From contig CM067374.1 of assembly GCA_034401795.1 (NCBI GenBank), positions 94,580,398 through 94,644,397 of the forward strand: DNA of 64,000 nucleotides, given 5' to 3'. Origin of the DNA: Chaetoderma sp. LZ-2023a (taxonomy: Eukaryota > Mollusca > Caudofoveata > Chaetodermatida > Chaetodermatidae). The translations under genes were made by a program, and so were the position numbers. Under the pieces are notes generated by a model, which ran no database searches, had not been told where the DNA came from, and saw only the letters and a list, made by a program, of their open reading frames with translations. Below, in pieces: positions 4,671 through 55,609 of the stretch; position 1 is the first letter of the stretch, and every line of letters starts with the position of its first letter.

Positions 4671-4991
4671 CCCTTCGATTTTAGCTATGCCCCGCCCATC
4701 TCTAGCTAATCTCCACTTGCACCTCGCTTATGTTGGGATCGATCCCTGAACTCTCGGAATCTCAATTTTCAGAAAACTATACATATTAGCTGTTGAATAT
4801 TTTGAAACTTATTTAACTGGATGCTGTTGTTATTAAATATCAAAGACATACGATTCGTACAATGTGTCGGACTATTAAGCGTTTAAGATGGACTAAATTG
4901 AGTGATTCATGATATAATGATTATGACGTCATCCTACACGTCATGTAGTTGATTATGACGTCATGTGATGGATGGATAAACTGAAAAGGTC
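4670..4991 (-). mobile_element. Family A MITE, right core arm deleted
   Basis: Reverse orientation: GC-box side first (TAGCTATGCCCCGCCCATC), left palindrome arm near 4,790, then a direct jump to ATTAAATATCAAAGACATAC and two TGACGTCA sites near 4,928 and 4,957. It ends in GATAAACTGAAAAGGTC. The segment ACATACGATTCGTACA followed by TGTGTCGGACTATTAAGCG aligns with the 35-bp satellite monomer. Confidence 0.8.
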
Positions 4992-6754: not shown

Positions 6755-7498
6755 GCATTATTATTATTATTAGGCATGACTGTTTCGAACATGCTTCTGC
6801 TTGCTGCTATGCTATTCTATCCTTAACGCCCTAAGTTTCGTGGCAGGTGTGCAGACCAAATATGGATGTGGACCTCCTATTTGAAGGATCTATATATATT
6901 CAGGCGATTTTTGCGCAATACACCTTTCCCCACATTGACGTCATTACGCGTGGATTTCCCTAAATCAACGCTCGGAGCAAAACGGCTGGCTGGTATAGCA
7001 GCCAACAATCAGCTGACCCGCATTGCATTACTAATGCACTAAAATATACCGCAATTTAAACCGTTCCTATAAAATTAAATTATTATATTATTTAAATCAT
7101 ATATAATTGGAAAGCGCATTCAATTGCCGAAACATTAATGCATTATTTTTTATATTTTTGTAAAGTTATTGGCGTATATAAAATACACCATTCATTAAAT
7201 CAAATGGACAATAGGGGATATTTTAAAATTGCAATCAACTGTATTAAATTTTACAAAACTATAAAAACAAATACAGAAATGTATAGAAAATTGGCTTAGC
7301 TTTCCAATGATGTATGACTTCAATAATATTATGAGCACAGTTTTTCATATACACTGGTTAAAGTGCACTGTATCTGATTCCCATAGTAAAGTAATGCTGT
7401 TTCCTCATCGGCTATCACGTTACCAGCCAGAAGCTGTCAGCACAATGTATTCTGGGAAGGTATTTTCCCAAACTACGCTAATGTGGGAAAGGTCTATT
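6755..7498. other. Unit 1 backbone, no gene seen
   Basis: 6,755-6,905 is shared with 37,303-37,420. 6,905-7,498 has no match in unit 2 or 3 and contains nothing recognised; it is A+T-rich. Confidence 0.5.
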
Positions 7499-8068
7499 AG
7501 GTATCAATGAAATAAACATGTTTCCATGACCATTTCCCCAAAATGCCATAGTGAAAGTAAAAGAATGCATAACAAAATGACAGGACACATAGTTATATGC
7601 TTGTGACGAGTATTGCACGTTTTATATATGGCCTTGTAATACAGAGCTGATTCAATAACTCACCTGACAGCAGAATATGCGAGCTACCTGTATAGGAAAT
7701 GTGCTGTATATGCAGGCAGGCATCTGTTTATAAGATGAAAGTATGTTTCTAAATGAATTCTGTGGTAATAGTTCCCTCTATGTAGGTATCAATGAAATGA
7801 GCAAGTTCACATGACCATTTGCGCAAATGACATAGTGAAAGCAAAGGAACATATACAAAAATGATAGGACACATAATTCTATGCATGTTGCTGAATATTG
7901 TGCATTTCATGTATGGCATTGCAATACAGTGCTGATTTTTAGACCGCAGAATATGCGAGTTATCTCTATCTATGAAATGTGTTGTATATGTGGGCAAGTA
8001 TCTGTTTATAAGATGAAAGTCTATTTTAAAATTAATTCTGTGGTAATAGTTCACCCTAATCCGAGACT
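7499..8068. repeat. Two-copy tandem duplication, 285-bp period
   Basis: AGGTATCAATGAAAT starts at 7,499 and again at 7,784, and the intervening sequence repeats with divergence (AATATGCGAGCTACCTGTAT vs AATATGCGAGTTATCTCTAT). Unit 2 carries only one copy (37,616-37,890). The minus-strand ORF of the second copy differs from its unit 2 counterpart almost only by amino-acid-changing substitutions, so it is not conserved as protein. Confidence 0.8.
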
Positions 8069-9346: not shown

Positions 9347-9702
9347 GCATAAATCCAATCAGTCACTCAAGTATTGACGTCATAATCAATTACGTCACCA
9401 TATAGGTTGACGTCGCAATCATAATTGACAGACAATTCTGAGTCATGAAGCTGGAGAGGTCCGTCAAGTGTATGAATTGTAAGTCTGTGATGGAATTACT
9501 ATTTAATAAAGATTATGTTGAATATTTTGAAATTAATTTGACTGCCTGCAGAGGTAGCAATAACGCCCAGTCAAATTAATTTTAAAATATACAAAAGCCT
9601 ACCTGTATAGTTACTTTGAAAATAGGATTCTGGGAATTCAGTATTCAAAGTATAAAAATCAATCCCACATGGGCGGGGTTTAGCTAGAGTTGGGTCCGGC
9701 TG
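9347..9702 (+). mobile_element. Family A MITE
   Basis: Follows AT at 9,345. CRE arm with TGACGTCA near 9,375. GAGGTCCGTCAAGTGTATG near 9,455 is the reverse complement of the satellite monomer core. Core arms about 9,518-9,545 and 9,565-9,595. The GC-box side is shortened. Confidence 0.75.
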
Positions 9703-15756: not shown

Positions 15757-16740
15757 AGTAACAAAGACATATTACTTTAGAGAATATAATGAAGTACTGA
15801 ATTGAAATTCCGCCTTTGAGAAAGTTACAGCCAGCATACAGCCATTTGACTCTGCGCTTGTCCCCTTCACATAGAAGGGGTCTTCGTCGGACCGATTTGA
15901 AAAGGAATGCATTGAAAAGCAATCTCCTGCACTCTTTAGAGAAATCTGAGTAAAATACTCCTTACCTCGTATTTAAAAAACTACATTAAAAAAATTCTAG
16001 GGGACAGCTGCTTTCGGCAGAAATATGGCTTGTCTGTAATAAATATGTCTTCTGTTATATGTGCCAGGGTATTTATATTAATGCTGATAGATATGTCGTG
16101 TTGAGACCTGGAATCATGTGATTTCTGTCTAACAAGTTCCAATAATCAGCGCTGGTAACTATCCCCTTAGAAAATTACCCCCATAGGGAGGTGCTGTCAT
16201 CCGACTGCGCTTGACGTTTAGCTTTACATTCGGGCCACCGCGCCGACCCACAAAACAATAAATCAGCTTCCATTGGGAAATGACATCGATCTACCCGTCA
16301 ATCGGATATAAAAGCGTGAGAGCGAGAAATTCCCTGACGAGGCAATCGACTCGTAAATGCTCCAAATTAACTTCTTACAAGTCGTTTGTAACATCGACAG
16401 CTTTCACACTTTTCTTGATCGACTAGTGAGTCGGTGTCACTCCGATATTTGATACTGTACGTGCCTGTTCAATTGAATGTTCTTGATGACTGGTGGTCTG
16501 CCAGATGCTGTCTATTATGAAAAACAGAACTATGTCCACGACAGGCCACACGTGACATCATTCATCTACTGACAATGTGCCTATTAATATATTAGCACGC
16601 AATATAGTACCAAAATAGCGACAGCCTGCACAGACCCTCAAACTGGCGGCCCTGCGACATAGTTGGATAGACATCATGGGCTGGCTCATGTTTGCAAATA
16701 TCTGCAAAGCTTTGCAATACTTTAATAACACCCACTAAGC
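15757..16740. other. Best-conserved unit backbone segment; holds a promoter-like site
   Basis: Collinear with 45,325-46,260 and visually among the most conserved non-transposon sequence in the unit. No ORF longer than about 31 codons is shared; the short ORF starting at 16,356 is stopped at its third codon in unit 2. See the separate entry for 16,268-16,431. Confidence 0.6.
16268..16431 (+). promoter_or_regulatory. Candidate Pol II promoter: CCAAT (inverted), TATA box, donor-like site
   Basis: ATTGG (inverted CCAAT) at 16,272, TATAAAAG at 16,307-16,314, and GTGAGT (good 5' splice-site match) at 16,426, about 90 bp after the expected start near 16,337. Spacing fits a TATA promoter with a short first exon, or a remnant of an LTR. 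I found no LTR boundaries. In unit 2 the surroundings are preserved but the TATA box reads TACAGAAG, so at most the unit 1 copy would work this way. Confidence 0.3.
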
Positions 16741-16744
16741 TAAT

Positions 16745-17135
16745 GGCCCATTCCAGCGTTAGCTATGACCCGCCCATCTATATCTAACCTCCTCCTACAC
16801 CTCGTTCGTGTTGGAATCGACCGATCCCTTAACTTCCTGACTATCAAATTCCAGAAAACTATACAGGTAAGCTGTTGAATATTTTAAAACTAATTTGACC
16901 TGGTGGTGTTGATGTCATATGTGTGCTGTTTCTGCCTGTGCCAGCAACAGCACCCAGTCAAATTAGGTCCAAAATATTCGACATCATGTTTATTAAATAG
17001 TAAAGACATACAATTCGCACAACAACACTTAGTTCATCACCAATTATGCATTCGTGACGCACTTATCTACGTCATTCATGACATCGCGTAGTTGATTATG
17101 CCATCATATCATGAGCAGATAAACTGGAAAGGCCC
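16745..17135 (-). mobile_element. Family A MITE left of the satellite
   Basis: Bounded by AT, with ends GGCCCATTCCAG and, inverted, GGGCCTTTCCAGTTTATC. Core arms contain ATTTTAAAACTAATTTG, a variant shared with the left half of the unit 2 element at 46,264-46,637. The loop is enlarged. Confidence 0.85.
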
Positions 17136-17229
17136 ATTGTTCAGGTAACCTAGTACTATCATTGCAACAAACTACTGTCCAGATGGCTGCTAAATATGGA
17201 AGTCCTTGGCTCTTTAACACTGAAGCTGA

Positions 17230-17310
17230 CCAGATTCTGCAGTGATCTTGAGAGGCGTCCATTTGCAGACCAAGAAAAGAGTATTCGAGATGATAGGTTT
17301 GCCACTAGAA
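17230..17310. mobile_element. Family B left arm fragment
   Basis: CATTTGCAGACCAAGAAAAG followed by GAGTATTCGAGATGATAG and CCACTAGAAATGG matches one arm of the family B fold-back. The other arm appears at 18,180-18,290, with a LINE fragment between them. Confidence 0.5.
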
Positions 17311-17599
17311 ATGGAGTATACAGATGATGTTGACTTTAGCCACGATGGCTACGTCCTCTTGATACACTTTCTTCCAATAATTGCAGAACAGCTCAAGGCT
17401 GCAAAACTCTTGGAATGAACCTAAAACATAGTTCACTAACGTATATCTATCATACGCAAAATAAATGAATGATGACGGTACCCCTTCATCGGCGCACTGA
17501 GATGTGGAGGAAGAACATAATCTTGGATTCCTCCTCTGCAGCTCTACAGATATTGGAAATCGCTGTGTAACATGAAATATCACCTTCCAGCCCGTTTAG
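17311..17599 (-). other. Unit 1-specific sequence, unrecognised minus-strand frame
   Basis: A minus-strand frame of 92 codons lies at 17,305-17,583. Its residues do not recall any family to me and there is no second copy for comparison. It could be part of the adjacent decayed retroelement or chance. Confidence 0.25.
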
Positions 17600-18090
17600 G
17601 AGGTGTGGAATTCTGGCTCTAAGTTCACTATGGAAGTCAAGATGGACTATATGATGCTACATGTGTTTTCAAAATGCTGTACAATAGCAACAGCTGGGCA
17701 ACTCCAAATGCGCTCGTGAGCACACTTGATTCATGTCACGCGCCAGCCATTATAAATCATCTCTGGCCACACAGTCTGATATTAAATGTAGCACTTTACA
17801 ACATTTGTAAAATGAAGCCTCTGTCTGTGAGGGTAGTGCAACAGCGATTGTCTATGTTCGGACAAATACGCCTGCTCAGAAAGCGCTAAAACTATCAGTG
17901 GTAGGTGCCAACAGATATCAGGTACAAAAAAGATGCCAGGACATCAACTTGCTAAGTATTGTGCAATCAGACCGCAAAACGTAATCCAGATACGATAAAG
18001 AACCTAAAGGAGCTTAGGACGCTCACAGCGGACAAGACACCATGGTGGAATAGATTGAGGAAAACCCGATTGAAGCTGAAATAGGTTTTC
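17600..18090 (+). pseudogene. Decayed non-LTR retrotransposon 3' fragment
   Basis: Plus-strand frames give SWATPNALVSTLDSCHA, then RVVQQRLSMFGQI, and after frame changes IKNLKELRTLTADKTPWW followed by NRLRKTRLK and a TAG near 18,082. This order (a cysteine-bearing linker, an RRLRMFGHI-like motif, a polar C-terminal helix before the stop) is typical of the region after the reverse transcriptase in RTE/CR1-type LINEs. The call rests on remembered family patterns; a protein search would settle it. At least two frameshifts. Confidence 0.5.
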
Positions 18091-18179
18091 ATTTCTTCAG
18101 CTGCAGAGCAAAGTCCTTCATCTTCATCGTTGTCATCATTTTAACAGTGTTTTTTTTGTCTATTTACTATTATAATGAT

Positions 18180-18290
18180 TGACGCGGTAAACGAGCCGGT
18201 TATTCCAGTGGTAAAATTAAAAAACCCAATCTCTTGGTCCATAAATGGACATGAAAAAGTTGAAATTTCATTAAGAAATTTGAGGATTAA
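18180..18290. mobile_element. Family B right arm fragment
   Basis: GAGCCGGTTATTCCAGTGG, then CTCTTGGTCCATAAATGGAC: the counterpart of the arm at 17,230-17,310. Confidence 0.5.
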
Positions 18291-19773
18291 AAATTAATTC
18301 AACTTCATGTTTGTTAAATTGTACATGCATCAAAGGCATACAATTCCTACAGTTGACTGGGCTGTAAACGCTATACAATTCCTACAGTTGACAGACCTTT
18401 AAATATTATGCAACTCGTACAGTTGACGGACCCTTAAATATTATACAATTCCTACAGTTGATGGATCTTTAAATGTTATACAATTCCCACAGTTGATAGA
18501 CCTTTAAATGTTATACAATTCCTACTGTTGACGGACCTTTAAATGTTATACAATTCGTACAGTTGACGGACCTGTAACCATTATACAATTTGTACAGTTG
18601 ACTGATCTTTAAACGTTATACAATTCCTACAGTTGACAGACTTTTAGATATTATACAATTCGTACAGTTGACGGACACTTATATGTTATACAATTCCTAC
18701 TGTTGACTGACCTGTACATGCTATACAATTCCTACAGTTGACATACCTTTAAATATTATACAATTCCTACAGTTGATGGACCTGTAAATGTTATACAATT
18801 CCTACCGTTGACGGACCTGTAAACATTATACAATTCGTACTGTTGACTGACTTTCAAACGTTATACAATTCCTACAGTTGACAAACCTTTAAATATTATA
18901 CAATTCGTACAGTTGACGGACACTTAAATGTTATACAATTCCTATAGTTGACGGACCTTTAAATCTTATACAATTCGTAGAGTTGACTGACCCTTCAACG
19001 TTATACAATTCGTACAGTTGACAGATCTTTAAATGTTATACAATTCGTACAGTTGACGGACCATTAAATGCTATACCATTCCTACAGTTGACTGACCTGT
19101 AAATGCTATACCATTCCTACAGTTGACTGAACTGTAAATGCTATACAATTCCTACAGTTGATAGACCTTTAAGTGTGATACAATTCCTACAGTTGATGGA
19201 CCTTTAAACGTTATACAATTCCTACAGTTGACGGACCTGTAAAGTTATACAATTCGTACAGCTGACTGACCTTTAAACGTTATACAATTTCTACAGTTGA
19301 CAGACCTTTAAATATTATACAATTCCTACAGTTGACTGACCGGTAAATGTTATACAATTCCTACCGTTGACGGGCCTTTGAATGTTATACAATTCCTACA
19401 GTTGACGGACCTTTAAATGTTTTACAATTCCTACAGTTGACGGACCTGTAAACGTTATACAATTCGTACAGTTGACTGACCTTTAAAGGTTATACAATTC
19501 CTACAGTTAACAGACCTTTAAATATTATACAATTCGTACAATTGAAGAACCATTATATGTTATACAATTTCTACAGTTGATGGACCTTTAAATGTTAGAC
19601 AATTCCTACAGTTGATGGACCTTTAAATGTTATACAATTCCTACAGTTGATTGACCATTAAACATTATACAATTCCTACAGTTGACTGCCCTGTAAACGT
19701 TATACAATTCGTGCAGTTGACAGACCTTTAAATGTTACACAATTCCTACAGTTGACTGACCTGTAAACGTTAT

Positions 19774-20330
19774 ACACTTCCTACAGTTGACAGACCTTTA
19801 AATATTATACAATTCGTTCAATTGACGGACTATTAAATGTTATACAATTCCTACTGATGATGGACCTTTAAATATTATACAATTCCTACAGTTGACTGGC
19901 CTGTAAACGTAATACAATTCCTACAGCTGACGGACATGTAAATATTATACAATTTCGATAGTTGACCTGCAAACGTTATACAATTCGTACAGTTGACTGA
20001 CCTTTAAACATTATACAATTCCTACAGTTGACAGGGAATTTAAATGTTATTTAATTCCTACAGCTGACTAACATGTAAACGTTATACAATTCCTACAGTT
20101 GACGGACCTTTAAATGTTATAAAATTCCAACAGTTGACTGACCTGTAAACGTTAAACAATTCGTACAGTTGACTGACATTTAAACGCTATACAATTCCTA
20201 CAGTTGACGGACCTTTAAATGTTATAAAATTCCTACAGTTGACTGACCTGTACACGCTATATAATTCCTACAGCTTACGGACCGTTAAATGTTATAAAAT
20301 TCCAACAGTTGACTGACCTGTAAACGTTAT
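19774..20330. repeat. 557-bp higher-order duplication within the satellite
   Basis: The unusual variant ACACTTCCTACAGTTGACAG at 19,774 recurs at 20,331. The variants following it (CGTTCAATTGACGGACTATT, CTACTGATGATGG vs CTACTGATAATGG) recur in the same order. 557 bp is close to 16 monomers. Confidence 0.75.
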
Positions 20331-21770
20331 ACACTTCCTACAGTTGACAGACCTTTAAATATTATACAATTCGTTCAATTGACGGACTATTAAATGTTAT
20401 ACAATTCCTACTGATAATGGACCTTTAAATATTATACAATTCCTACAGTTGACTGGCCTGTAAACGTAATACAATTCCTACAGCTGACGGACATTTAAAT
20501 ATTATACAATTCCGATAGTTGACCTGCAAACGTTATACAATTCGTACAGTTGACTGACCTTTAAACATTATACAATTCCTACAGTTGACGGACCTTTAAA
20601 TGTTATAAAATTCCAACAGTTGACTGACCTGTAAACGTTAAACAATTCGTACAGTTGACTGACATTTAAACGCTATACAATTCCTACAGCTTACGGACCT
20701 TTAAATGTTATACAATTCTTACAGTTGACGGACCTGTAAACGTTATACAATTCGTAAAGTTGACAGACCTTTAAATATTATACAATTCTTACAGTTGACG
20801 GACCCTTAAATGTTATACAATTCCTACAGTTGATGGACCTTTAAATGTTATACAATTCCCACAGTTGATGGACCTTTAAATGCTATACAATTCCCACAGT
20901 TGGTGGACCTTTAAATGCTATACAATTCCTATGGTTGATGGACCCTTCAACTTTATACAATTCGTACAGTTAACAGACCTTTAAATGTTATACAATTCGT
21001 ACAGTTGACGGACCCTTAAATGTTATACAATTCGTACAGTTGACGGACCCTTAAATGTTATACAATTCCTAGAGTTGACTGACCTGTAAATGCTATACAA
21101 TTCCTACAGTTGACAGACCTTTAAATGTTATAAAATTCCTACAGTTGATGGACCTTTAAACGTTATACAATTCCTACAGTTGACGGACATGTAAAGTTAT
21201 ACTATTCCTACCGTTGACTGACCTGTACACGTTATACAATTCGTGCGGTTGATGGACCTTTAAATGTTATACAATTTCTACAGTTGACTGACCTGTAAAC
21301 GTTATACAATTCGTACAGCTGACTGACATTTAAACGTTATACAATTCCTACAGTTGACAGACCTTTAAATATTATACAATTCCTACAGTTGACTGGCCTG
21401 TAAACGTTATACAATTCCTACAGTTGATGGGCCTTTGAATGTTATGCAATTCCTACAGTTGACTGACCTGTAATCCTTAAACAATTCCTACAGTTGACTG
21501 ACCTTTAAAGGTTATACAATTTCTACAGTTGACAGACCTTTAAATATTATACAAATCGTACAATTGACGGGCCATTGAATGTTATACAATTCCTACAGTT
21601 GATGGGCCTTTAAATGTTGTACAATTCCCACACTTGATTGACCTTTAAATGTTAGACAATTCCTACAGTTGACGGACCTTTAAATGTTAGAAAATTCATA
21701 AAGTTGACAGACCTTTAAATGTTATACAATTCGTACATTTGACGAACCCTTAAATGTTATACAATTCCTA

Positions 21771-24700
21771 CAGTCGATGGACCTTTAAATGTTATACAAT
21801 TCCTACAGTTGATTGATCTTTAAACATTGTACAATTCCTACAGTTGACTGACCTGTAAACGTTATTCAATTCGTGCAGTTGACGGACCTGTACACGTTAT
21901 ACAATTCGTACAGTTGACGGACCCTTTAAACGTTATACAATTCCTACAGTTGTCGGACCTTTAAATGTTATACAATTCCTACAGTTGACTGACCTGTAAA
22001 CGCTATACACCTCGTACAGTTGACTGACCGTTAAACGTTATACAATTCCTACAATTGACAGACCTTTAAATGTTATACAATTCCTACAGTTGACTGACCT
22101 GTAAACGTAATACAATTCCTACAGCTGCCGGACAATTAAATATTATACAATTCCTACAGTTGACCTGTAAACGTTAGACAATTCCTACGGTTGACTTACC
22201 TTTAAATGTTATAAAATTCCTACAGTTGACTGACCTGTACACGTTATACAATTCCTACAGTTGCTGGACCTTTAAATGTTATACACTTCTTACAGTTGAC
22301 GGACCTGTAAACGTTATACAATTCCTACAGTTGACTGACCTTTACACATTATACAATTCCTACAGTTGACAGACCTTTAAATATTATACAATTCGTACAG
22401 TTGACGGACCCTTAAATGTTATACAATTCCTACAGTTGCTGGACCTTTAAATGTTATACAATTCCCACAGTTGATGGACCTTTAAATGTTAGACAATTCC
22501 TACAGTTGGCGGACCTTTAAATGTTAGACAATTACTACAGTTGACGGACCCTTAAATCTTATACAATTCGTACAGTTGACGGACCCTTCAACGTTATACA
22601 ATTCGTACAGTTGACAGACCTTTAAGTGTTATACAATTCATACAGTTGACGGACACTTAAATGTCATACAATTCCTACAGTTGATGGACCTTTAAATGTT
22701 ATACAATTCTTACAGTTGATGGACCTTAAACGTTATACAATTCCTACAGTTGACTGACCAGTAAACGTTATACAATTCGTGCAGTTGACGGACCTTTAAA
22801 TGGTATACAATTCCTACCGTTAACTGACCTGTGAACGTTATACAATTCGTACAGTTGACTGACCTTTGAATGTTATACAATTCCTACAGTTGACTGACCT
22901 GTAAACGTTATACAATTCCTACAGTTGACGGACATTTGAATGTTATACAATTCCTACATTTGACTGACCTGTAAACGTTATACAATTCCTAGAGTTTACG
23001 GACCTCAAAGTGTTTTACAATTCCTACAATTTACGGACCTGTAAACGTTATACAATTCGTACAGTTGACTGACCTTTGAACGTTATACAATTCCTACAGC
23101 TGACAGATCTTTAAATAGTATACAATTCGTACAATTGGCGGACCTTTAAATGTTATACAATTCGTACAGCTGACGGACCTTTAAATGCTATACAATTCCT
23201 ACAGTTGACAGACCTTTACATCTTATACAATTCCTACAGTTGATGGACCTTTAAACATTATACAATTCCTACAGTTGACAGACCTTTACATCTTATACAA
23301 TTCCTACAGTTGATGGACCTTTAAACGTTATACAATTCCTACAGTTGACTGACCTGTAAACGTTATACAATTCCTACAGTTGACGGACCTTTAAATGTTA
23401 TACGTTTCCCACAGTTGATGGACCCTTAAACGTTATACAATTGACAGTCCTTTACATATTATACAGTTCGTACAGTTGACGGACCCTTAAATGTTATACA
23501 ATTCCTACAGTCGATGGACCTTTAAATGTTATACAATTCCTACAGTTGATTGATCTTTAAACATTGTACAATTCCTACAGTTGACTGACCTGTAAACGTT
23601 ATTCAATTCGTGCAGTTGACGGACCTTTAAATGTTATACAATTCCTACAGTTGACTGACCTGTACACGTTATACAATTCGTACAGTTGACGGACCCTTTA
23701 AACGTTATACAATTCCTACAGTTGACGGACCTTTAAATGTTATACAATTCCTACAGTTGACTGACCTGTAAACGCTATACACCTCGTACAGTTGACTGAC
23801 CGTTAAACGTTATACAATTCCTACAATTGACAGACCTTTAAATGTTATACAATTCCTACAGTTGGCTGACCTGTAAACGTAATACAATTCCTACAGCTGC
23901 CGGACAATTAAATATTATACAATTCCTACAGTTGACCTGTAAACGTTATACAATTCGTACAGTTGACGGACATTTAAATATTATACAATTCCTACAGTTG
24001 ACCTGTAAACGTTAGACAATTCCTACAGTTGACTTACCTTTAAATGTTATAAAATTCCTACAGTTGACTGACCTGTACACGTTATACAATTCCTACAGTT
24101 GCTGGACCTTTAAATGTTATACACTTCTTACAGTTGACGGACCTGTAAACGTTATACAATTCCTACAGTTGACTGACCTTTACACATTATACAATTCCTA
24201 CAGTTGACAGACCTTTAAATATTATACAATTCGTACAGTTGACGGACCCTTAAATGTTATACAATTCCTACAGTTGCTGGACCTTTAAATGTTATACAAT
24301 TCCCACAGTTGATGGACCTTTAAATGTTAGACAATTCCTACAGTTGGCGGACCTTTAAATGTTAGACAATTACTACAGTTGACGGACCCTTAAATCTTAT
24401 ACAATTCGTACAGTTGACGGACCCTTCAACGTTATACAATTCGTACAGTTGACAGACCTTTAAGTGTTATACAATTCATACAGTTGACGGACACTTAAAT
24501 GTCATACAATTCCTACAGTTGATGGACCTTTAAATGTTATACAATTCTTACAGTTGATGGACCTTAAACGTTATACAATTCCTACAGTTGACTGACCAGT
24601 AAACGTTATACAATTCGTGCAGTTGACGGACCTTTAAATGGTATACAATTCCTACCGTTAACTGACCTGTGAACGTTATACAATTCGTACAGTTGACTGA

Positions 24701-27180
24701 CCTTTGAATGTTATACAATTCCTACAGTTGACTGACCTGTAAACGTTATACAATTCCTACAGTTGACGGACATTTGAATGTTATACAATTCCTACATTTG
24801 ACTGACCTGTAAACGTTATACAATTCCTAGAGTTTACGGACCTCAAAGTGTTTTACAATTCCTACAATTTACGGACCTGTAAACGTTATACAATTCGTAC
24901 AGTTGACTGACCTTTGAACGTTATACAATTCCTACAGCTGACAGATCTTTAAATAGTATACAATTCGTACAATTGGCGGACCTTTAAATGTTATACAATT
25001 CGTACAGCTGACGGACCTTTAAATGCTATACAATTCCTACAGTTGACAGACCTTTACATCTTATACAATTCCTACAGTTGATGGACCTTTAAACATTATA
25101 CAATTCCTACAGTTGACAGACCTTTACATCTTATACAATTCCTACAGTTGATGGACCTTTAAACGTTATACAATTCCTACAGTTGACTGACCTGTAAACG
25201 TTATACAATTCCTACAGTTGACGGACCTTTAAATGTTATACGTTTCCCACAGTTGATGGACCCTTAAACGTTATACAATTGACAGTCCTTTACATATTAT
25301 ACAGTTCGTACAGTTGACGGACCCTTAAATGTTATACAATTCCTACAGTCGATGGACCTTTAAATGTTATACAATTCCTACAGTTGATTGATCTTTAAAC
25401 ATTGTACAATTCCTACAGTTGACTGACCTGTAAACGTTATTCAATTCGTGCAGTTGACGGACCTTTAAATGTTATACAATTCCTACAGTTGACTGACCTG
25501 TACACGTTATACAATTCGTACAGTTGACGGACCCTTTAAACGTTATACAATTCCTACAGTTGACGGACCTTTAAATGTTATACAATTCCTACAGTTGACT
25601 GACCTGTAAACGCTATACACCTCGTACAGTTGACTGACCGTTAAACGTTATACAATTCCTACAATTGACAGACCTTTAAATGTTATACAATTCCTACAGT
25701 TGGCTGACCTGTAAACGTAATACAATTCCTACAGCTGCCGGACAATTAAATATTATACAATTCCTACAGTTGACCTGTAAACGTTATACAATTCGTACAG
25801 TTGACGGACATTTAAATATTATACAATTCCTACAGTTGACCTGTAAACGTTAGACAATTCCTACAGTTGACTTACCTTTAAATGTTATAAAATTCCTACA
25901 GTTGACTGACCTGTACACGTTATACAATTCCTACAGTTGCTGGACCTTTAAATGTTATACACTTCTTACAGTTGACGGACCTGTAAACGTTATACAATTC
26001 CTACAGTTGACTGACCTTTACACATTATACAATTCCTACAGTTGACAGACCTTTAAATATTATACAATTCGTACAGTTGACGGACCCTTAAATGTTATAC
26101 AATTCCTACAGTTGCTGGACCTTTAAATGTTATACAATTCCCACAGTTGATGGACCTTTAAATGTTAGACAATTCCTACAGTTGGCGGACCTTTAAATGT
26201 TAGACAATTACTACAGTTGACGGACCCTTAAATCTTATACAATTCGTACAGTTGACGGACCCTTCAACGTTATACAATTCGTACAGTTGACAGACCTTTA
26301 AGTGTTATACAATTCATACAGTTGACGGACACTTAAATGTCATACAATTCCTACAGTTGATGGCCCTGTAAATGTTATACAATTCCTACAGTTGATGGAC
26401 CTTTAAACGTTATACAATTCCTACAGTTGACTGACTGACCAGTAAACGTTATACAATTCGTGCAGTTGACGGACCTTTAAATGGTATACAATTCCTACAG
26501 TTAACTGACCTGTGAACGTTATACAATTCGTACAGTTGACTGACCTTTGAACGTTATACAATTCCTACAGTTGACTGACCTGTAAACGTTATACAATTCC
26601 TACAGTTGACGGACATTTGAATGTTATACAATTCCTACATTTGACTGACCTGTAAACGTTATACAATTCCTAGAGTTTACGGACCTCTAAGTGTTTTACA
26701 ATTCCTACAGTTTACGGACCTGTAAACGTTATACAATTCGTACAGTTGACTGACCTTTGAACGTTATACAATTCCTACAGCTGACAGACCTTTAGATAGT
26801 ATACAATTCGTACAATTGGCGGACCCTTAAATGTTATACAATTCCTACAGTTTGTGGACCTTTAAATGTTATACAATTCCTACAGTTGATGGACCCTTCA
26901 ACTTTATACAATTCGTACAGTTTACGGACCTCTAAGTGTTTTACAATTCCTACAATTTACGGACCTGTAAACGTTATACAATTCGTACAGTTGACTGACC
27001 TTTGAACGTTATACAATTCCTACAGCTGACAGATCTTTAAATAGTATACAATTCGTACAATTGGCGCACCTTTAAATGTTATACAATTCGTACAGTTGAC
27101 GGACCTTTAAATGCTATACAATTCCTACAGTTCATGGTCCTTTAAATGTTATACAATTCCTACAGTTAATGGACCTTTAA
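21771..27180. repeat. Higher-order repeats of 1,737 and 1,838 bp within the satellite
   Basis: The marker CAGTCGATGG occurs at 21,771, 23,508 and 25,346. The sequence after each repeats the same ordered series of monomer variants. The second and third copies are almost identical to about 26,350. The first is 101 bp shorter, explained by two missing blocks of about 65 and 35 bp. After 26,350 the third copy diverges and then resumes. Confidence 0.85.
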
Positions 27181-27592
27181 ACGTTATACAATTCTTACAG
27201 TTGACGGACCTGTAAACATTATACAATTCGTACAGTTGAGTGACCTTTAAACATTATACAATTCCTACAGTTGACAGACCTTTACATCTTATACAATTCC
27301 TACAGTTGATGGACCTTTAAACGTTATACAATTCCTACAGTTGACTGACCTGTAAACGTTATACAATTCCTACAGTTGACGGACCTTTAAATGTTATACT
27401 ATTCCCACAGTTGATGGACCCTTAAACGTTATACAATTGACAGACCTTTACATATTATACAGTTCGTACAGTTGATGGACCCTTAAATGTTATACAATTC
27501 ATACAGTTGACGGACCTTTAAATGTCATACAATTCCTACAGTTGGTGGAACTTTAAATGTCATAAAATTCCTACAGTTGCCAGACATTTAAT

Positions 27593-27894
27593 TGTTCAGG
27601 ATGAAGATAAATACGTAATTCATTACGAATATTCATTGTGAATTCTTATCCATCCTATACACAGTCTCCAGTTTAAGGTGTTGCTGTATACCACTTGAAA
27701 TGAAAGAATATTTGGTGGCGTGTGATCTCCTAGATAGCCTTTAAGACGTCCAATTTCGCGAGTATTCTAAATTCACCCATTTCAAGAGACGCCCATGTAA
27801 TCAATAGGGGACAATTTTCCGAGGAGATGGTGTCGTTCTTTATATGTACTGATATCTAGCTATTTGTGTAAACATCGGCGATTTCCTTCATACT
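27593..27894. other. Satellite right flank, no gene seen
   Basis: Begins TTCAGGATGAAG, which loosely resembles the family A continuation TTTAAGATGG, then runs into unit 1-specific sequence with no recognised feature. Confidence 0.45.
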
Positions 27895-28255
27895 TTGTTG
27901 CCTTTCTTCATCCCCCCCATTTCTAGTTAAGACGCGGCCCATGTTGGAATAAATTGTCCACCAATCCCATTTTCAAGGTAACTAAACAGGTAAGCTGTTG
28001 AATATTATGAAACTAATTTTACCGTGAGCTGTTGCTATGGCAAAACAGCTCTAAGTCAAATTAGTTTTAAAATGTTCAATAGAATGTTTATTAATTTGGT
28101 AAATCATCAAAACCATACAAACCATATAAACCAAACTAGTTCGTGACGGACGCTTAGACTTTGCCGATGGACTTAGTTATTTTGATTGTGGCGTCAGTCA
28201 ACGTGTGAAGTATTTGATTGTGAAGTCACATATTTGAGTGACATATCGGGTCCCT
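27895..28255 (-). mobile_element. Family A MITE
   Basis: GC-box side with a C run at about 27,912, core arms near 27,996-28,025 and 28,055-28,085, and a CRE side with TTGATTGTGGCGTCA. Ends at GGTCCCTCC followed by AT. Confidence 0.7.
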
Positions 28256-28299
28256 CCATTGAAAGTGAATGGAAATATTGTATAGTGATATCAGGGGTG

Positions 28300-28652
28300 A
28301 AAAGGTTAATCTCTCAGTCTGCGTTGAATGGATAGCAATGACCCGCCAAGGGCATATTTCGCCAGTGTTGGGATCGATCGATTCCCCAGCTCCCTGACTA
28401 TCAATTTCCAGAAAACTATACAGGCAAGTTGTTGAATATTTTGACACTAATATGACTGGGCGCTGTTTCTGATTATCTATTGATTACATATTAAGGACAT
28501 ATAATTCATATTACAACGCTTAGTCCATCATCAATTAAGAATCTGAAACGAACTCAGCTACGTCATTCATGACGTAATTGATTATGACGTCATCCTGCAC
28601 GTCGCATAGTTGATTATGACGTCGCATGATTGAGTGACAGACTGGAATCCTC
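28300..28652 (-). mobile_element. Family A MITE right of the satellite
   Basis: GC-box side degraded; first core arm near 28,430; second arm lost. CRE side with TGACGTCA near 28,588. The end ACTGGAATCCTCC plus AT and the following TGTTCCTGCCC are shared with the right end of the unit 2 element at 46,264-46,637. Confidence 0.75.
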
Positions 28653-29263
28653 CATTGTTCCTGCCCTGCGTAAACCTTGCTTTACTCACTTATCTATCAT
28701 TCTTCAAATACCATGATGAACTGTTTTTGATTAGTCCAGTTTGAGCATATGACATGAATAGAATCCCATCAGTAATGTTGATCAAAATTGTGCTAATTGT
28801 GATAGTCATGTACGATAGCAAAATTTAAAGGTGGGACTAGGGGCGTGAGATTGAGCAAAATATGGTGATAAATCGATATATGGGAGATCGTATATCGTAT
28901 TGATATACAGTACATCTTCATTTTGAAAAATGTCTGCGTGGTGGCGACACATTAGTAATAATTTTAATTAAAAACACAGCCTAAAACTGTTGAATATTTT
29001 GGAATTAAGTTGACTTGAAACTGTTGCTGCCTATATGTCATTTCAAAATATTCATCATGTCGACATAAATCGTTCACGCCATTTCGATTGTTTTTAGTTT
29101 ATCATAGTAGCAATATACACGATATTTCATCAAATCGAGACATACTTATATCGACATACAGTATAACTCATACATAACGTAACATGTTTCCAAAGCAACA
29201 AGAACAAATTTGTCCAATACCCGCGTCATTGATATATTTTTCAATTGGGCCGTCGTAAGGTCA
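28653..29263. other. Unit backbone with family A core remnant at 28,987-29,059
   Basis: Collinear with 46,638-47,180. Contains an A+T-rich segment with TATCGATATA-like inverted repeats flanking the core remnant (also in unit 2). No gene seen. Confidence 0.6.
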
Positions 29264-29721
29264 AGTCTCTATTTTGGAAACAATGTTGCTGAAAGTTGTT
29301 GGGTTCAGTTGCATTTTAGTTTTTGACCGTAAAATTGGCCTACCTATTCGCGACCCCGCAGACACACATCAACCCAAGTTCGGAAAAGATCGCTCTATTA
29401 CAGTTATTGAAAAATGCTTCAAAAATGTCTATTTTGAAAACAATTTTGCTGAAAGCTGTTGCTATTGTGTTCAAGCCCCAAAATTGCCATACATGTTCGG
29501 ACCACATTGACAAGCTCACAGCCGAGATTTGAGAAGATTGCACCAGTAGAACCACAGTTATTAAAGAAGGCGTAAAATGTATGTTTTGGAAACTGTTTCT
29601 AAAAGCTGAAGTCGTTGCGTTTCAGACCCCGAAATAGGTACACCTGTTAGGGATCCCACGGGCATGCTTCTCTCCAAATTTGAAGAAGTTACCTCGAGTA
29701 GAACCAGAGTTAGTGCTATAA
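29264..29721. repeat. Three diverged tandem repeats of about 145-162 bp
   Basis: Copies start near 29,264, 29,426 and 29,577. Each begins with an ATTTTGGAAAC-like stretch and GCTGAAAG, passes a CCCC-AAAATTG-like stretch, and ends with GTAGAACCACAGTTA or a variant. Absent at the corresponding place in unit 2, which has other sequence. ORFs here are short and not conserved between copies. Confidence 0.65.
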
Positions 29722-33065: not shown

Positions 33066-33935
33066 TATTAGTTGTTGGTGCCGATCATCAAAATAACATG
33101 CATAACAAATGATCAGTAAATATATGGCATTCGCTTTAAACCTGATATTTGTTCAAGAAAATTTAAATTTTCTCATAGAAAATGGTCATTTGAAGACCAA
33201 GAGAAGAATATTTTTGAAAATGTACCACTGGAATGACTGGCCCGGTTATCGAGTAGTCTTCTCATGGTCAACAAATGAACATTTCTCAAGACCACTGCAG
33301 AAGCTATCTTTGGTTGATATGAGTGTTAAAGCATTAACGCGGTATTCACGCACATTTGTGACTCAATCCATTCCTTGACTGACGACGTCACACTTTTGAA
33401 GCCTGTTAGCCGGTGGTTAGATTCGAACTCGAGGAACAAGAAATGCACCTTCAACTGTTCACAAGAATATATCTAGTTGCTCTATAATAGAATCTATTGG
33501 AAATTTTCGACAATTAATACTTGAAGATTATGAAGGAGCTTAAAGCAAAAGTACCCCACCCCCTCCCAACCCACTCAGCCCCACCCTCGATCTCAAACTA
33601 ATCACATTCCTAGCTTAGTTGGCAGCGGTCGGTCTGGTAGTAATTGCAAGGATAATTCGTTGCTTTGCCATGAATACTTTGCGGGCCATTAACTGTCTAG
33701 AAAACTGAATTTAATCATTGCTATTGGATATAAGTAGCTGCGTTATCCAAATGTGTCGATTCAGAGAATTACCAGAGCAAATTCTTTCCAAAAGCAGTGT
33801 CAGAATTTCATTAACACACGCCATCCTGAATTTCATCCAAACAAATGGGTACCCTGGCGCTAAATATAGACTAAATAAAGTCTGGAGAGTTGACTAAAAA
33901 CAAATTGAATACAAATTGTTGCTGCATAAAATATT
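33066..33935. other. Unit backbone with family B element (33,130-33,330)
   Basis: Near-identical to 340-1,165. The apparent 89-codon ORF at 33,109-33,378 crosses the family B repeat and is not kept open in the other units. No gene seen. Confidence 0.65.
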
Positions 33936-35197: not shown

Positions 35198-35525
35198 GGC
35201 CAATGGATAGATCCGTTCTGTCGCTCAAGTATATGACGTCATAATCAATTGAGTCACAAACAGGCTGAGGTCACAATCAAATACGTAACGAATGACGTAG
35301 CTAGATCCGTCATGAATAATCGGTCAAATATAAGAATTGTATTTTTTTACTTTTTAGTTGAATATTTGCCATAGGCGGCAACAAAACTAAGCAAAATTAG
35401 TTTCTAAATATTCAGCAGGTTACATTAAAATTAGGATTCTCGCATTCAAATTATATAAATCGATCCGTGAGCAAAGCATGAGTGGAGGTTAGCTAGAAAT
35501 TGGCGGGGCATAGCTAGAAATGAAT
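35198..35525 (+). mobile_element. Family A MITE, core partly deleted
   Basis: GGATAGATCCGTTCTG start, TGACGTCA near 35,232, shortened core near 35,355-35,415, GC-box side with GGCGGGGCATAGCTAG. Paralogues at 2,008 and 58,938. Confidence 0.75.
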
Positions 35526-37488: not shown

Positions 37489-37586
37489 TTGTATTTCTAC
37501 CGCCATTGTCAATGTACAAATAATCCTCATATGCCGTTGTCACGGCCTGAGTGTAATAAAGAAAATACGAAATACGAAATACGAAA
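37421..37586. repeat. AAT microsatellite plus retroposon-like insert
   Basis: About 165 bp absent from the collinear unit 1 sequence near 6,890. It has (AAT)n at 37,424-37,488, a unique middle, TGTAATAAAG, and a tail of three AATACGAA-type units. This resembles the 3' end of a LINE or SINE with a tandem tail. No protein-coding signal. Confidence 0.5.
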
Positions 37587-37615
37587 GATATATATTCAGG
37601 CCATTCGCGCGCATG

Positions 37616-37890
37616 TAGGTATCAATGAAATGAGCAAGTTCACATGACCATTTGCCCAAATGACATAGTGAAAGCAAAGGAACATATACAAAAATGATAG
37701 GACACAGAATTCTATGCATGTTGCTGAATATTGTACATTTCATGTATGACATTGCAATACAGTGCTGATTTTTAGACAGCAGAATATGCGAGTTATCTCT
37801 ATCTATGAAATGTGTTGTATATGTGGGCAAGTATCTGTTTATAAGATGAAAGTCTATTTTAAAATTAATTGTGTGCTAATAGTTCACCCT
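37616..37890. other. Single copy of the 285-bp unit duplicated in unit 1
   Basis: Matches 7,784-8,068. See the unit 1 entry. Confidence 0.7.
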
Positions 37891-44358: not shown

Positions 44359-44713
44359 GGAAGGTTCCAGTTTTAATCTTTAGATAAACTCCGTCCACAC
44401 CTCGCTGGTGTTGGGATCGATCAATCGATCGATCCTGAACTCTCTGTCTATCATTTTAAATAAAACAGGTAAGCTGTTTGACTGTGTGCTGTTGCTGCCA
44501 GCAACAGCAGGCACCAAGTACAATTAGTTTCAAAATATTCAACAACATGTTTATTAATATTAAAGACATACAATTTATAGAAACTGACGGACTATTAAAG
44601 TGTTTAATACGGACTAAATCTAGTCATTCGTGCTGTAATTGATTAAGACGTATCCTCCACGTCATGTAGTTGATTATGACATCGTATGACGGATGGATAA
44701 ACTGGCAAGATCT
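44359..44713 (-). mobile_element. Family A MITE
   Basis: Bounded by AT. Ends GGAAGGTTCCAGTTTT and, inverted, AGATCTTGCCAGTTTATC. First core arm mostly deleted. ACATACAATTTATAGAAACT then GACGGACTATTAAAG aligns with the satellite monomer. Paralogue of 14,394-14,786. Confidence 0.8.
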
Positions 44714-47344: not shown

Positions 47345-47570
47345 TAAGCCTTTAACACTCATATCAGCCAAAAACGGCTTTTGCCGTGGTCTTGAGAAAT
47401 GTCCATTTTCTGAACAAGAGAAGGCAATTTTTGAAAATTTACAACTGAAATGACTGGCTCGATAACCGAGCCAGTCATTCCAGTGGTAAATTTTCAAAAA
47501 CATTCTTCTGTTTGTCTGCAAATTGACATTTTCTTTGGAAAATCGAAATTTTCTTGAAAAGATTTAAGCC
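47345..47570. mobile_element. Family B fold-back, most complete copy
   Basis: Palindrome centred near 47,464 on GGCTCGATAACCGAGCC, with arms of about 60 bp (CAAGAGAAGG, TTTTTGAAAATTTACAACTG and the inverse CAGTGGTAAATTTTCAAAAA, CATTCTTCTG). It is bordered by TTAAC and GGTTAA. Related fragments are at 405, 17,230, 18,180, 33,130, 47,965, 48,965 and 56,815. Confidence 0.75.
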
Positions 47571-47649: not shown

Positions 47650-49420
47650 AGGGATATTCCACTGGGGGATTTTATGCATCTGACGTAAAGTACTAATTTT
47701 CCGCATTAATTTGAGACCAAGAGCACAATTTTATGCCAACAAATAAAAAAGATATCCTCAATTTAAATTGCTAAAGTAAGCAGTAGATAGAGGCGCCATT
47801 TTGAACAAGTAGCTGACGTCACCGACACACCTACTCTGTTTGCCCGATCGAGGATAGCCGTAACCAGGGGAGGTAAATCTTGCATCTCGTGGATAATTAG
47901 CGTACTGGCTAAACAACTGACACTTTGCCGCAGTGTTTGGAGGAAATTAAAGTGCAATTAGTGTCCCGATGATCGCGCCAGTCATTGTAGTGCTAAATTG
48001 TCAAAAATTGTTTTCCTATGGGCAATTTCTATTTTTAAAAACATTGAGAGGTTATGCCAGGAGCGTGTTTGCGATCAACCAGCTACAACAAATTCTTGAA
48101 AAATATATTAGTTGAATAAATGTTGAATGTAATTTCTCTGAAAGCTGTTGCTATTGCAACTTTTGCTTCCAGTCAAATTCCAGTTTCAAAATATTCAACA
48201 GGCAGTAAATATGGGTCAACATTTTAAAATTTGGGATCAGTTAGTTAACCCTTTCATGGACAGAAAAGCAGAAAGCTTAAAATTTACCCTGCATAGGTCT
48301 ATTGTGTGAAACTAATTAGTTTGGAAGCTACTGCAACATAATTCCAGGGAAATTTAATTCAGAATATTCAACACTCTGCATAGTTATTTTAAAATTGGGA
48401 GTAAACGTTGTAATGATTAATAACGCTGGATCTCAATAGTGTGAAAGCACTAAACTACTAATTATGTCTAGCATACACTTATCATTATTTACTAGCTGTC
48501 ACCTACTATCGTCTATGAAGTAAGCCGCTAAGCGGTTGCCTATAATTGACCGACCGGACAATCAGTGACATCGTTTCATTTTGGTTTGCAAATCCCGTTT
48601 TACAATTGATGCAAGCAAATACGACGTTAATTGTCGAGTTTGATTCTTTTATATTAAAATTAAGTACCGCGCCTTTTTTCTTGAAATTCATGACACATTA
48701 TTTTAAAATTATACAGACTATATGTTCTAAACTTGTGTCTTCCAAATTTAAATGTGGAAGATGTCCATCCAGTGCCGATGTTATGACGCCATCTTTCAGT
48801 TAGCCCCTTTTCATGCGGATGCTTTTGTGGATCGGTATCTGAAAATGTGAATTTCCGTACCCTTTCCATGATCGTTTCTATTACTGCAAGCCCATGCTTG
48901 ACATGCGGACATGATGCGATTTAACCATTTCACGCCAGCACTGGCCTCTGCAATCGTCAAGTTGAGGACGCAGGTCAAAAGAAGGCTATTTTGAGAATTT
49001 ACAACTAAAACGTGTGTCTCAGTAACCGAACCAGCCATTCCAGTGGTCAATTTTCAAAAATAGTCTTCGCTTGGCCTGCAAATGGCCATTCAATAAGGAA
49101 ATGTTCTGATTTTCCTGACAGAATTTGGTCATTAACGGGTTAATTAATATTCGGCTGTCATAACGCGAAGTAAACAGGTAAAACTAAAAGCGCTGGCGAT
49201 ATTTTGCTGGTGTGTCGTGGACGTCATAATCTCGCGGTTTCTCGCTCTCGTTGCGAGAAAATGGATGCGCCCAGGAGTCATGTTTTCGAGCGTTTTGGGC
49301 ATATTCATTTTATTATTTCTCGGCAATGGAACGGTGTATTACATATTTTTTTGCGGCAACTATTTCGGATTATAGTATATTTTTAGTTGACTTATTCCCG
49401 ATTTTCACTGGAATTTCCCT
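47650..49420. mobile_element. TTAA-flanked non-autonomous DNA transposon
   Basis: TTAA at 47,646-47,649 and 49,421-49,424. Inner ends are AGGGATATTCCACTGG and, inverted, AGGGAAATTCCAGTG. Similarity between the arms extends inward: GACGTCACCGACACACC at 47,815 against GACGTCCACGACACACC inverted near 49,225, implying long degenerate terminal repeats. No transposase is visible. TTAA targets are characteristic of piggyBac and Kolobok elements; the family is undetermined. Family A cores (48,100-48,205; 48,300-48,380) and family B fragments (47,965-48,065; 48,965-49,145) are nested inside. Confidence 0.75.
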
Positions 49421-51644: not shown

Positions 51645-54600
51645 CTTCTTCTTTTCGATCGGTGGTATCACACTTGGAGAGCCGTTCTCAAGATGAAATC
51701 TGTGGTTTTCTGCAGTTCTTCCACAGGCCCATACAGCTTTTCAAGAAAAGAGGTTGACAAAAGCCATATCTCTTCTCTCAGCAGATGATACGTACTGCAA
51801 CATTGAAGTATGTGCTCTGTGGTCTGTTCTGCTTCTCCACAAGGACAAGCGGGCGATGTCGTAAGGTGGAACCGCCTGTACATGTGTTGGTTTAATCTGT
51901 TGTGTCCAGTTCTGAGACGGTAAATGGTCACTTGCTCTGGCCTCGAGAGATGATGGTAGGCATCTTCTGATTGAGGTGTTCTATAGAGTGACTTGATGAT
52001 AGTCTTCGTCTCTGTATGTGTAACCATGTTTTCTGTCTGATTCTCTTCTTCACCCACCTTTGCCATCTTGTCTGCTTCCTCATTTCCTTGAACTCCACAG
52101 TGTGAGGGGATCCACTGCAATGCTATCCGAAAGCATTTGATGGCTTGTAGTGCTTCTTCAAGTTGTGGTTGCTTACCTTTGGTGATAGCCTCAAGGACGG
52201 AGCGGGCATCAGATAAAAAGACAATCTGTGCAATAGGGTCTGCTGTTCTGCTGATGGTATTAGCTGCATGAACCAGTGCTTCGACTTCAGCTCTGTTGTT
52301 TGTGCAGTGTTTGCCCGTCGGTATTGAAGCTGACTCATGTGGTCCGTTTGGATACTGTATGTGCAGTTCGGCACCTCCGCTCCTAATCGCATCTTTGGCT
52401 GATCCATCTGTGTAGATCCTTATCTATGTCTCCTGAGGGTACATTTCTTCCAGCATGGCTAGGGTCAGGGCCTTCTTGCTCACATCATTGTGTTCATCTT
52501 TGGTTGTGAGATGAGGTACTGTGGTGCGAATAGCTATGCTCTCTAGTTTGTTTTCCCAGGGTGGAGGATCAAGGGTGTGGTTTGGGTCTTCTATTTGTGC
52601 TGGCAACATTTCTTGATGTTTCCTTTGAAGTGCTTTTGTCTCTTTCACAACACTTGATCTTTTAAGTCTTCCTGATGACAGCTGTGCCTGCCTGATCTTC
52701 ATCGGGTGGTTGCTGAACGATTTGAACTTTGCGGCTTGGATCAGTGCTTTGCATTCCCTTCCTTTGCTAAGTGGGGGGATGCCTGCTGTCTGCTCCATTT
52801 TTTCTATTGGTGTTGATCTCATTCCACCAGTGATGATGCGCAGTGCCTGGTTTTATACTCTGTCGAGGTTCTGTTGATGAGATTTAGCTGCTGTCATCCA
52901 TGAGCTGGATCCATACTCAAGGTGTGGTCGTACGGCACCTAGGTAGATGGTCTTGAGGATCCTTTCATTGGCACCCCACTTTGTTCCTGCCAGCTTCCTC
53001 GTGATGTTTAGCTTTCTTCTGGCCTTTGCCTCTGCATTCTGTATGTGCTCCTTCCATGTTAATCTCCTGTAGTAGGTGACTCCCAGGTATGTCTGCTGGT
53101 CCTCGTACTCGAGTGGAGTACCGCCCAGTGTCAGATTGCCAACCTTGGTTTTGGTGGACAGTGAGAATAGCATGGCTGATGATTTTTCTTTGTTGATGGT
53201 AATACACCATCGATTGGCCCAAGCTGTAATTCTGTCCAAGGCGAGCTGCGTTTTGTACGTGGCAGTCATTGTATACTCCTCGTGCACCAGAGCACGAGGT
53301 CATCTGCATAGAGGGCTGCTTGGATCTCATTGGGCAGCTCTGCTACAATGTCATTAATGAAGAGTATGAACAGAGTTGGTGATAATACTCCGCCTTGTGG
53401 CACGCCTTGTCTCAGCAATACATTCTGTCCAGATTGTCCATCCACCAGCACCCTAGCTCTGCGATTGTGTAGGTACGACTTGGTCCACCGGAACATGTTG
53501 CCACCGATGCCTGTGCGCCGGAGCTTCACGAGGAGGCCATCCTTCCACACCTTGTCAAATGCCTTCTGCAGATCGATAAAGGCAGCCAGCATCACCTTCT
53601 TGGCTTGAAAAGTGCCCTCTATGACCTGTGCAAGATGTGTTGTTTGATCTTCTGTGCTCCTGTATCTTCTGAAGCCGGCCTGCTCTGAAACTATAATGTT
53701 CTCCGACTCCAGGTACCACTGCAACCGCTGGTTGATGATGCGCTCCATGGTCTTGCATATGCAGCTTGTAAGACTGATAGGATGGCAGCTCAGCACTTTC
53801 GTCTTGTTCTTCCCTTTTCTCAGAATAGGAGTCATTCTGGCTTCCTTCCAGCACTGAGGAACCTCTCCATTGGTCCAACTGCGATTAAAGATGTCTAGCA
53901 ACTTGCGGAGAGATGCATTACCAAGGTGTTGGATCATTTCATTCGTAGTGCCATCTGGCTCGGGAGATTTCTTCTTGTTAAATTGGCGGATAGCCTTCTT
54001 CAGTTCTGTTAAACTAATGTCAACTTTCATTGCATCGTGAGTGTTGGTGTCTGTTCTTTCCTTTTGCTCTTTTCTAACCTCTTTTTGACGCATACGTGGT
54101 ATAGAAATGTTGCTTTCTTTTGCATATGCCTTCGCAAAGGCATCTCCAGCCATCTTTCCTGTCAGTGTTTGTCCATCTTCTTCAAGAGTAATCTTCTCTC
54201 CCCCGACACCCTCATCATTCAGTGCTTTAGTCAGTCTCGATAGCTTTGTGGTGTCTCTCTCTAAATTAAACCCTGCCGTCTTTTCCCTCCAGCTTCTTCT
54301 TTGTGCCCCCAGCTTGGTCTTTAGATACATGGCTTTAGTTTGTTGTAGCGTGAAGTGGTTTTCATGACAGGGATTACCCTCTGCATCTTCTCTGGCCTTG
54401 TCTAGTTTATCATGTGCTGCTTGCAGTTCTGTTGTCCAGTAGGGGCGGTAGTTTTTCCTGAACCCTCGAGGAATTGCTTCGTTGGCAGCCTTGAGGATAC
54501 CTGAATTAAATTCCTTGACCACGTTGTTGATGTTTCTCCCTTCTACTGCTATATTTTGGGTAAGCTCACTGGAACGAATGCCGAACAGACTCCAATTTGC

Positions 54601-55609
54601 CTTTTTGTAGTTCCACGTTGGATGTTGAGGTGTACTTGTCGAAATACTTCCAGAAAAAGAGAGGAGGACTGGGCGGTGGTCGCTTCCTCCTAACTGCGAT
54701 CCGACCACTCTACTGAGGTTTCTGTGAATGTCTTCAGTACAAAATGCCAAGTTCGGCGTTGTTGTCGAGTGCCACCGGCGCGAGTAGAAGGTAGGCTGAT
54801 CTGTGGGATCGTTGACAAGTAAAATGTGCTTTTCATCTTGCCATGCTTCAATGTCTTCTCCTCGTTTATCAAGTGTTCTGTATCCCCAGCTCTGGGACTG
54901 GCTATTAAAGTCTCCCGCAATGAGGAAGTGGCAGTCCGGGACCTGGATTGTGTCAAGTGAGAGATTCTTGTCATTAGGGCAGTAATAATTGACAATGTCA
55001 ATCACAGAGTTGCTGGTTGTTACCTTGATCTTGATATATTCCGCCTCTTCCATAAAGGGTTTGATCTGGCTGGTGTTCACGCTGTTTCGGACCAAGCTGA
55101 TCACTCCACCTTTCTTTCTTCCTCTTCGATCACACCGGAAAATCTGGTGGCCTCTGATCTTAAATGGTTTACCTTCTTGCAGGTGTGTCTCTTGGATGCA
55201 GCAGATATCAATGTTGTTTTCGTACAGGAACTGTTCGAGCTCTGATTTCTTGTTGGTAACCCCTTCTGCGTTCCAGTGCATGATGTTGATACTAGGGTTC
55301 TCTTTGGGGTTGGTCTTCTCTTTCGGGTTGCCAGTAGCTCTCCATCCTCGTCCCCTAGCTCCACAAGACGAGTTGATTGGACCTCCAGTAGCTGGGGGTG
55401 GGCTCCTTCGAGGCGTGGAGCCCGGCGCTGCACCTGCCTGACGGATCCTCGCAGGACGAGCACCATTTCGGTTGATTCGATCTCCAAGTGTCATTTCATT
55501 AGCGTTGTGCATAATGCTCTGGTTAGCACCCCCAAATGTCTCGATTGACACCCAGTGGGTTACACCCCTGCGCCACGTTGAGGCCGAGCATATAGTCTTA
55601 AACAGGGGT
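51645..55609 (-). mobile_element. LINE insertion (I/Jockey-type, with RNase H), 12-bp TSD
   Basis: A 3,965-bp element exactly flanked by ATCATGAATAAT (51,633-51,644 and 55,610-55,621). The undisturbed target lies in unit 1 near 32,000. Transcribed from the minus strand: the 5' end is ACCCCTGTTTAAGAC; the 3' end is GAAAAGAAGAAG, only about 23 nt after the stop codon, so the 3' UTR is almost absent and ends in an AAG-type tail. No ORF1 precedes the endonuclease, so it is probably 5'-truncated, although a one-ORF element cannot be excluded. Confidence 0.9.
51668..55512 (-). pseudogene. LINE ORF2: endonuclease, reverse transcriptase, RNase H (disrupted)
   Basis: Endonuclease (EEP/APE type) motifs in order: MHWNAEG, IQETHL, AGDFNSQ, GSDHRPV. 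Reverse transcriptase: KSPEPDG (usually KSPGPDG), FIDLQKAFDKVW, RQGVPQGGVLSP, YADDLVLW at about 53,289-53,312. A frameshift near 53,280 moves the thumb region to another frame (HLEYGSSSW, to 52,853). A TAA at about 52,850 and a TAG at about 52,424 interrupt it further. RNase H follows: IYTDGSA, NRAEVEAL, FLSDARSV, WIPSHCGVQGNEEAD. The C-terminal part has a CPCGEAEQTTEHILQC zinc-like motif. An RNase H after the RT points to the I/Jockey superfamily. The three lesions make it inactive. The open frame formally continues upstream of the LINE into flanking DNA, so I start at the first in-element Met. Confidence 0.9.

Follow-up and report, generated by a model that had tools for sequence, protein, structure and literature searches.

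Satellite DNAs derived from MITEs have already been described, including Xstir and miDNA4 in Xenopus, the HindIII satDNA of bivalves, and others (as listed in PMC12628747 and PMC9659126). The Xstir tandem arrays of Xenopus are reported to be related to an Xmix MITE (Hikosaka and Kawahara 2004, cited through PMC12628747 and PMC9659126). The miDNA4 satellite of Xenopus tropicalis is described within a Tc1/mariner MITE (Scalvenzi and Pollet 2014, cited through the same two articles). Outside vertebrates, the Tetris / TIR-220 system of Drosophila virilis is described as an internal tandem repeat amplified within its element to up to 66 copies (PMC4079207), and oyster Helentrons are reported to carry satellite-like arrays (PMC7492417). 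Here we describe a 35-bp satellite array and a MITE-like element, termed family A, which occur together in one window, namely the whole 64,000-nucleotide stretch of Chaetoderma sp. LZ-2023a DNA that was analyzed.

The locus is a further case of a known route, that of a satellite arising from a transposon, as seen in frogs, flies, and shellfish. It resembles Xstir, by description and not by sequence, in that internal MITE sequence is the presumed origin of the Xstir repeat, which occurs in MITE, array, and composite forms; unlike in that system, a single locus is seen here. The miDNA4 element is reported to hold either a single unit or an array, and its arrays may lose the element ends, both of which are comparable to our locus. 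However, its authors reportedly infer the capture of a pre-existing repeat, whereas here the segment looks native to family A. Tetris is similar in that part of the interior of a non-autonomous DNA transposon was amplified within the element into longer arrays, which may have disrupted it. According to the published description, its unit is about 220 bp long and already tandem in the terminal inverted repeats, whereas the present unit is 35 bp long and single in the other aligned copies. The compared cases are either satellites already spread through the genome or elements with short internal repeats beforehand; here, 64 kb of sequence contain single-copy source segments together with the expanded array and its two junctions. 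One can therefore read the segment that founded the array, and its borders, directly, and the locus would be well suited to population studies of length variation. We found no paper on a 35-bp MITE-derived satDNA in the open-licence literature, and we do not claim that it is unpublished.

The satellite array and its probable source element

Tandem Repeats Finder and wrap-around alignment delimited an array of 266 tandem 35-bp units at 18,338-27,596 on the plus strand (consensus ATACAATTCCTACAGTTGACGGACCTTTAAATGTT), in agreement with the array of about 9.3 kb that an earlier sequence-only reading of this DNA had noted. Tandem Repeats Finder reported a period of 35, 266 copies, 82% matches, and a score of 11,252. 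In the wrap-around alignment, 247 of the 266 units have a length of exactly 35 bp, the mean pairwise identity is 84%, and the mean identity to the consensus is 90%. All units are arranged head-to-tail, and this is the one such array seen. Both the array and the remaining window are AT-rich (35% and 39% GC, respectively). Self-comparison of the array further revealed a higher-order block of 1,838 bp, corresponding to a lag of 53 units, which is repeated about 2.3 times at 22,190-26,363 (plus strand). Positions 22,190-24,525 match the sequence 1,838 bp downstream base for base (2,336 bp, 0 mismatches), which reflects either unequal exchange in the very recent past or an error in the assembly.

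The source element, family A, is an interspersed, MITE-like repeat with a consensus of about 404 bp, which was built from a separate alignment of 13 longer copies. This consensus has terminal inverted repeats: it starts with AATGGACCTTTCCAGTTT, and its other end is the exact reverse complement of that sequence (18 of 18 bp); several inner positions are poorly conserved between copies. The element consists, in order, of a left arm, a central palindrome, a segment homologous to the satellite unit, and a right arm in which TGACGTCA is abundant (CRE-rich). With three stretches of family A as queries, BLAST returned 83 clusters of matches outside the array at E values up to 1, and 31 places holding the right half of the element were picked by hand from these clusters for alignment. 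Many of the omitted clusters are core fragments or weak matches, but a few (for example, 35,231-35,296) resemble further copies. Two of the 31 places, at 15,035 and 44,975, fit the family poorly, reaching 18.7 and 23.1 bits, respectively, when left out of the profile. The aligned parts of the 31 copies make up 5,230 of the 54,670 bp outside the array. The family fits a MITE as judged from its sequence, the name being used descriptively here; the ends given are provisional, with several copies sharing longer flanks. Visual inspection of the 12 bases on either side of the 13 copies revealed no target-site duplications, and the family A pattern had 0 matches in viral contigs. Certain copies have common flanks in pairs (16,759 with 46,260; 33,950 with 57,614; 14,391 with 44,375; and 32,348 with 56,000), which may point to longer elements or to insertions nested within one another.

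The satellite unit is family A sequence. The sequence-only reading had assigned the monomer to the family A stretch between the core and the CRE arm and had suggested aligning the two consensus sequences as a check; this alignment ranked the real unit above every one of 5,000 shuffles. The unit scored 35, with a 6-base gap, when aligned to the 31-copy consensus, a value that none of the 5,000 composition shuffles reached (best, 27). Against the consensus of a 5-copy subfamily it scored 46 without gaps, matching at 29 of 33 positions, while the best of 5,000 composition shuffles scored 34. Scores on the opposite strand were at background. A profile of the 266 units was also run over the window with the array masked, and all nine matches with E<0.1 fall inside the 31 family A copies. 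When matches were listed up to E 10, there were 35, consisting of 21 within family A copies and 14 elsewhere. The best match outside the array is a single-copy homologue at 95-127 on the minus strand (23.1 bits, E 4.3e-6), and further single-copy homologues in family A lie on the same strand at 9,457-9,481 (20.4 bits, E 3e-5), 56,403-56,437 (19.5 bits, E 5.8e-5), and 2,115-2,138 (18.1 bits, E 1.6e-4). Among the three examples previously cited for this homology, the one at 9,455-9,480 (minus strand) is strong, but those at 4,850-4,890 and 44,565-44,605 are weak when taken alone, and the homologues at 95-127, 56,403-56,437, and 2,115-2,138 are stronger than either. The former of the two corresponds to 4,848-4,881 on the plus strand (6.7 bits, E 0.58) and the latter to 44,566-44,605 on the plus strand (4.3 bits, E 3.3, at 44,585-44,599); in both copies, it is the family alignment that places the segment.

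Neither the alignment nor the unit profile detected a second unit in any of the 31 aligned copies. The sole adjacent pair of profile matches within one copy consists of the homologue at 2,115-2,138 and a 10-base, 3.2-bit fragment at 2,099-2,108. Thus, intermediates are missing from the material examined: 0 of the 31 family A copies in the window contain 2 to 10 units. An exact scan with a 19-base piece of the unit gave 0 matches in viral contigs. The same piece matched three loci in bacterial contigs, once each, and these were set aside because about 4 matches were estimated by chance in 257 Gb.

Array borders and the host copy

At each of its edges, the array passes into MITE sequence in the same register to within a few bases, clearly on the left and marginally on the right when that edge is considered alone. 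On the left, positions 18,297-18,337 (plus strand) match the part of the family A profile between the core palindrome and the unit, and BLAST matches to family A extend back to 18,287. The left flank alone scores 11.1 bits against the family A profile, compared with 2.7 bits for the best of 1,000 shuffles. The family A sequence that had been reported at this edge, ATGTTTGTTAAATTG, is present at 18,308-18,322 and does align to the family. The right edge, which the sequence-only reading had not mentioned, also runs into family A: positions 27,597-27,641 (plus strand) match the profile towards the CRE arm, and by eye only the likeness continues to about 27,660. Taken alone, the right flank is marginal, since its 8.9 bits against the same profile do not exceed the 9.0 bits of the best of 1,000 shuffles; together with the last unit it reaches 22.8 bits.

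When the left flank, the last unit, and the right flank are joined, they form one family A match of 45.7 bits, which covers profile positions 11-126 and runs from 18,297 to 27,641 (E 2.4e-15, for a target set of six short sequences). Among 1,000 constructs with shuffled flanks placed around the real unit, none scored above 11.3 bits. Searched with the 5-copy subfamily profile, the joined sequence reaches 35.5 bits and the left flank by itself 5.9 bits; the right flank by itself is not among the matches listed. When each of the 31 copies was left out of the profile in turn, the joined sequence obtained 40.4-50.9 bits and the omitted copies 18.7-116.8 bits, which places the joined sequence near the low end of the family A range. 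On the 31-copy profile, the left flank occupies positions 11-46, the units 43-83, and the right flank 87-126; on the subfamily profile, the left flank (18-57) and the unit (58-93) abut at 57/58. Accordingly, the array occupies the expected place of one segment, within a few bases. In a more stringent control, in which real flanks were drawn at random from this MITE-rich window, 8 of 2,000 constructs spanned both junctions and one, at 89.0 bits, exceeded 45.7 bits, probably because other family A copies had been drawn.

The element that holds the array is a truncated relic abutting another repeat and not a complete element. About 41-51 bp of the host MITE remain on the left and, by profile, 45 bp on the right. 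The left remnant adjoins a different dispersed repeat at 18,182-18,291, which aligns to the reverse complement of 33,135-33,254. No terminal repeats of the host copy with up to 5 substitutions were found in 16,501-18,338 or 27,597-29,500, and the one pair detected there is that of another family A copy, at 16,742-17,138. The array therefore lies inside the remains of a MITE. At the left edge, the motif GCATCAAAGGCA is similar to the ATCCATCAGAGACA found in a subset of copies (an exact match in two and a near match in others), and copies of the ATCCATCAGAGACA type also include several of the best unit matches. The right edge (CATTCATTACG) is closer to other family A copies than to the group of the left-edge motif. 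The host is thus not a simple member of one subfamily. As a side observation, the dispersed repeat family (GAGCCAGTCATTCCAGTGG...) is found at 18,153-18,291, 33,135-33,254, 47,428-47,499, 48,989-49,059, and 56,864-56,955.

Origin of the array

Homology, strand, and register at both edges agree, and they indicate that the satellite has grown from an internal MITE segment; the transposon-to-satellite transition suggested earlier is therefore supported, here for the one array seen. Most probably, a single internal segment of one MITE copy was amplified in situ, and unequal exchange lengthened the array. The process would have begun when, in one non-autonomous family A copy, about 35 bp of internal sequence between the central palindrome and the CRE-rich right arm were duplicated in tandem by chance. 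Replication slippage or unequal exchange may then have enlarged the array to about 266 units, and a later exchange over one whole block could have produced the exact 53-unit repeat. This order of events, with duplication followed by growth through slippage or unequal exchange, is our reconstruction, and the array presumably has no selected function. We are evenly divided as to whether the locus represents a founding step, in which a segment that is single-copy throughout the family and had no prior tandem structure reached about 266 units in place without being dispersed.

Several other explanations bear on these data. It is practically negligible that the likeness is a chance one between an AT-rich repeat and an AT-rich element: although the array and the remaining window share this composition and the shuffle controls were composition shuffles only, no shuffled unit reached the real score in 5,000 attempts, and the constructs with shuffled flanks stayed far below the joined match. 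An assembly artefact is a more serious concern, although an unlikely one, and would affect the exact 1,838-bp block repeat and hence part of the array length. That 2,336 bp are free of mismatches where units generally differ from each other as noted above speaks for such an error; however, recent unequal exchange would look identical, and the MITE homology and both edges are independent of the block repeat.

The direction of the change could also have been the reverse, with the satellite existing first, an ancestral MITE taking up one unit, and the array re-expanding from the captured unit. Such a capture model has been reported for miDNA4 of Xenopus (PMC12628747), and one window provides no independent date for the satellite. 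We nevertheless regard it as quite improbable here, given that the segment can be aligned across divergent members of family A as a stretch of one continuous element and that, in the window, every unit-profile match with E<0.1 falls within the array or the family A copies. It is similarly improbable that the flanks come from two family A fragments whose recombination formed or brought in the array. Family A copies are frequent in the window, the motif at the left edge is like one copy group and that at the right edge (CATTCATTACG) like another, and the left flank yields to another repeat at about 18,291, all of which would suit this explanation, but the two flanks can be joined through one unit into one continuous element, large gaps and overlaps being absent. 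In-situ amplification within one MITE copy remains our preferred explanation; the points that weigh against it are the shortness of the MITE flanks, the marginal score of the right flank by itself, the result with randomly drawn real flanks, the lack of host terminal repeats in the searched regions, the lack of 2- to 10-unit intermediates in the 31 copies, and the absence of closer likeness to the MITE in edge units.

Within the array, units at the edges are no closer to the MITE than inner ones (Spearman 0.04, p 0.56), so no gradient from edge to centre was found. Hairpin-driven expansion was also considered and rejected: three units folded as DNA no better than shuffled sequences (z +1.31; 181 of 200 shuffles folded at least as well). 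The family has CAT at both ends of the segment, and five junctions read GTCATA, three of the five lying within the repeated block; this is suggestive only, and we do not claim microhomology at the segment ends as part of the origin.

The window also contains other features. A 278-bp unit occurs twice in tandem at 7,493-8,052, with an apparent further copy, judged from translations, at 37,540-37,875. Non-LTR retrotransposon-like ORFs are present on the minus strand at 51,668-55,704, where the ORF at 53,266-55,704 has endonuclease and reverse transcriptase domains and that at 51,668-52,423 has an RNase H domain.
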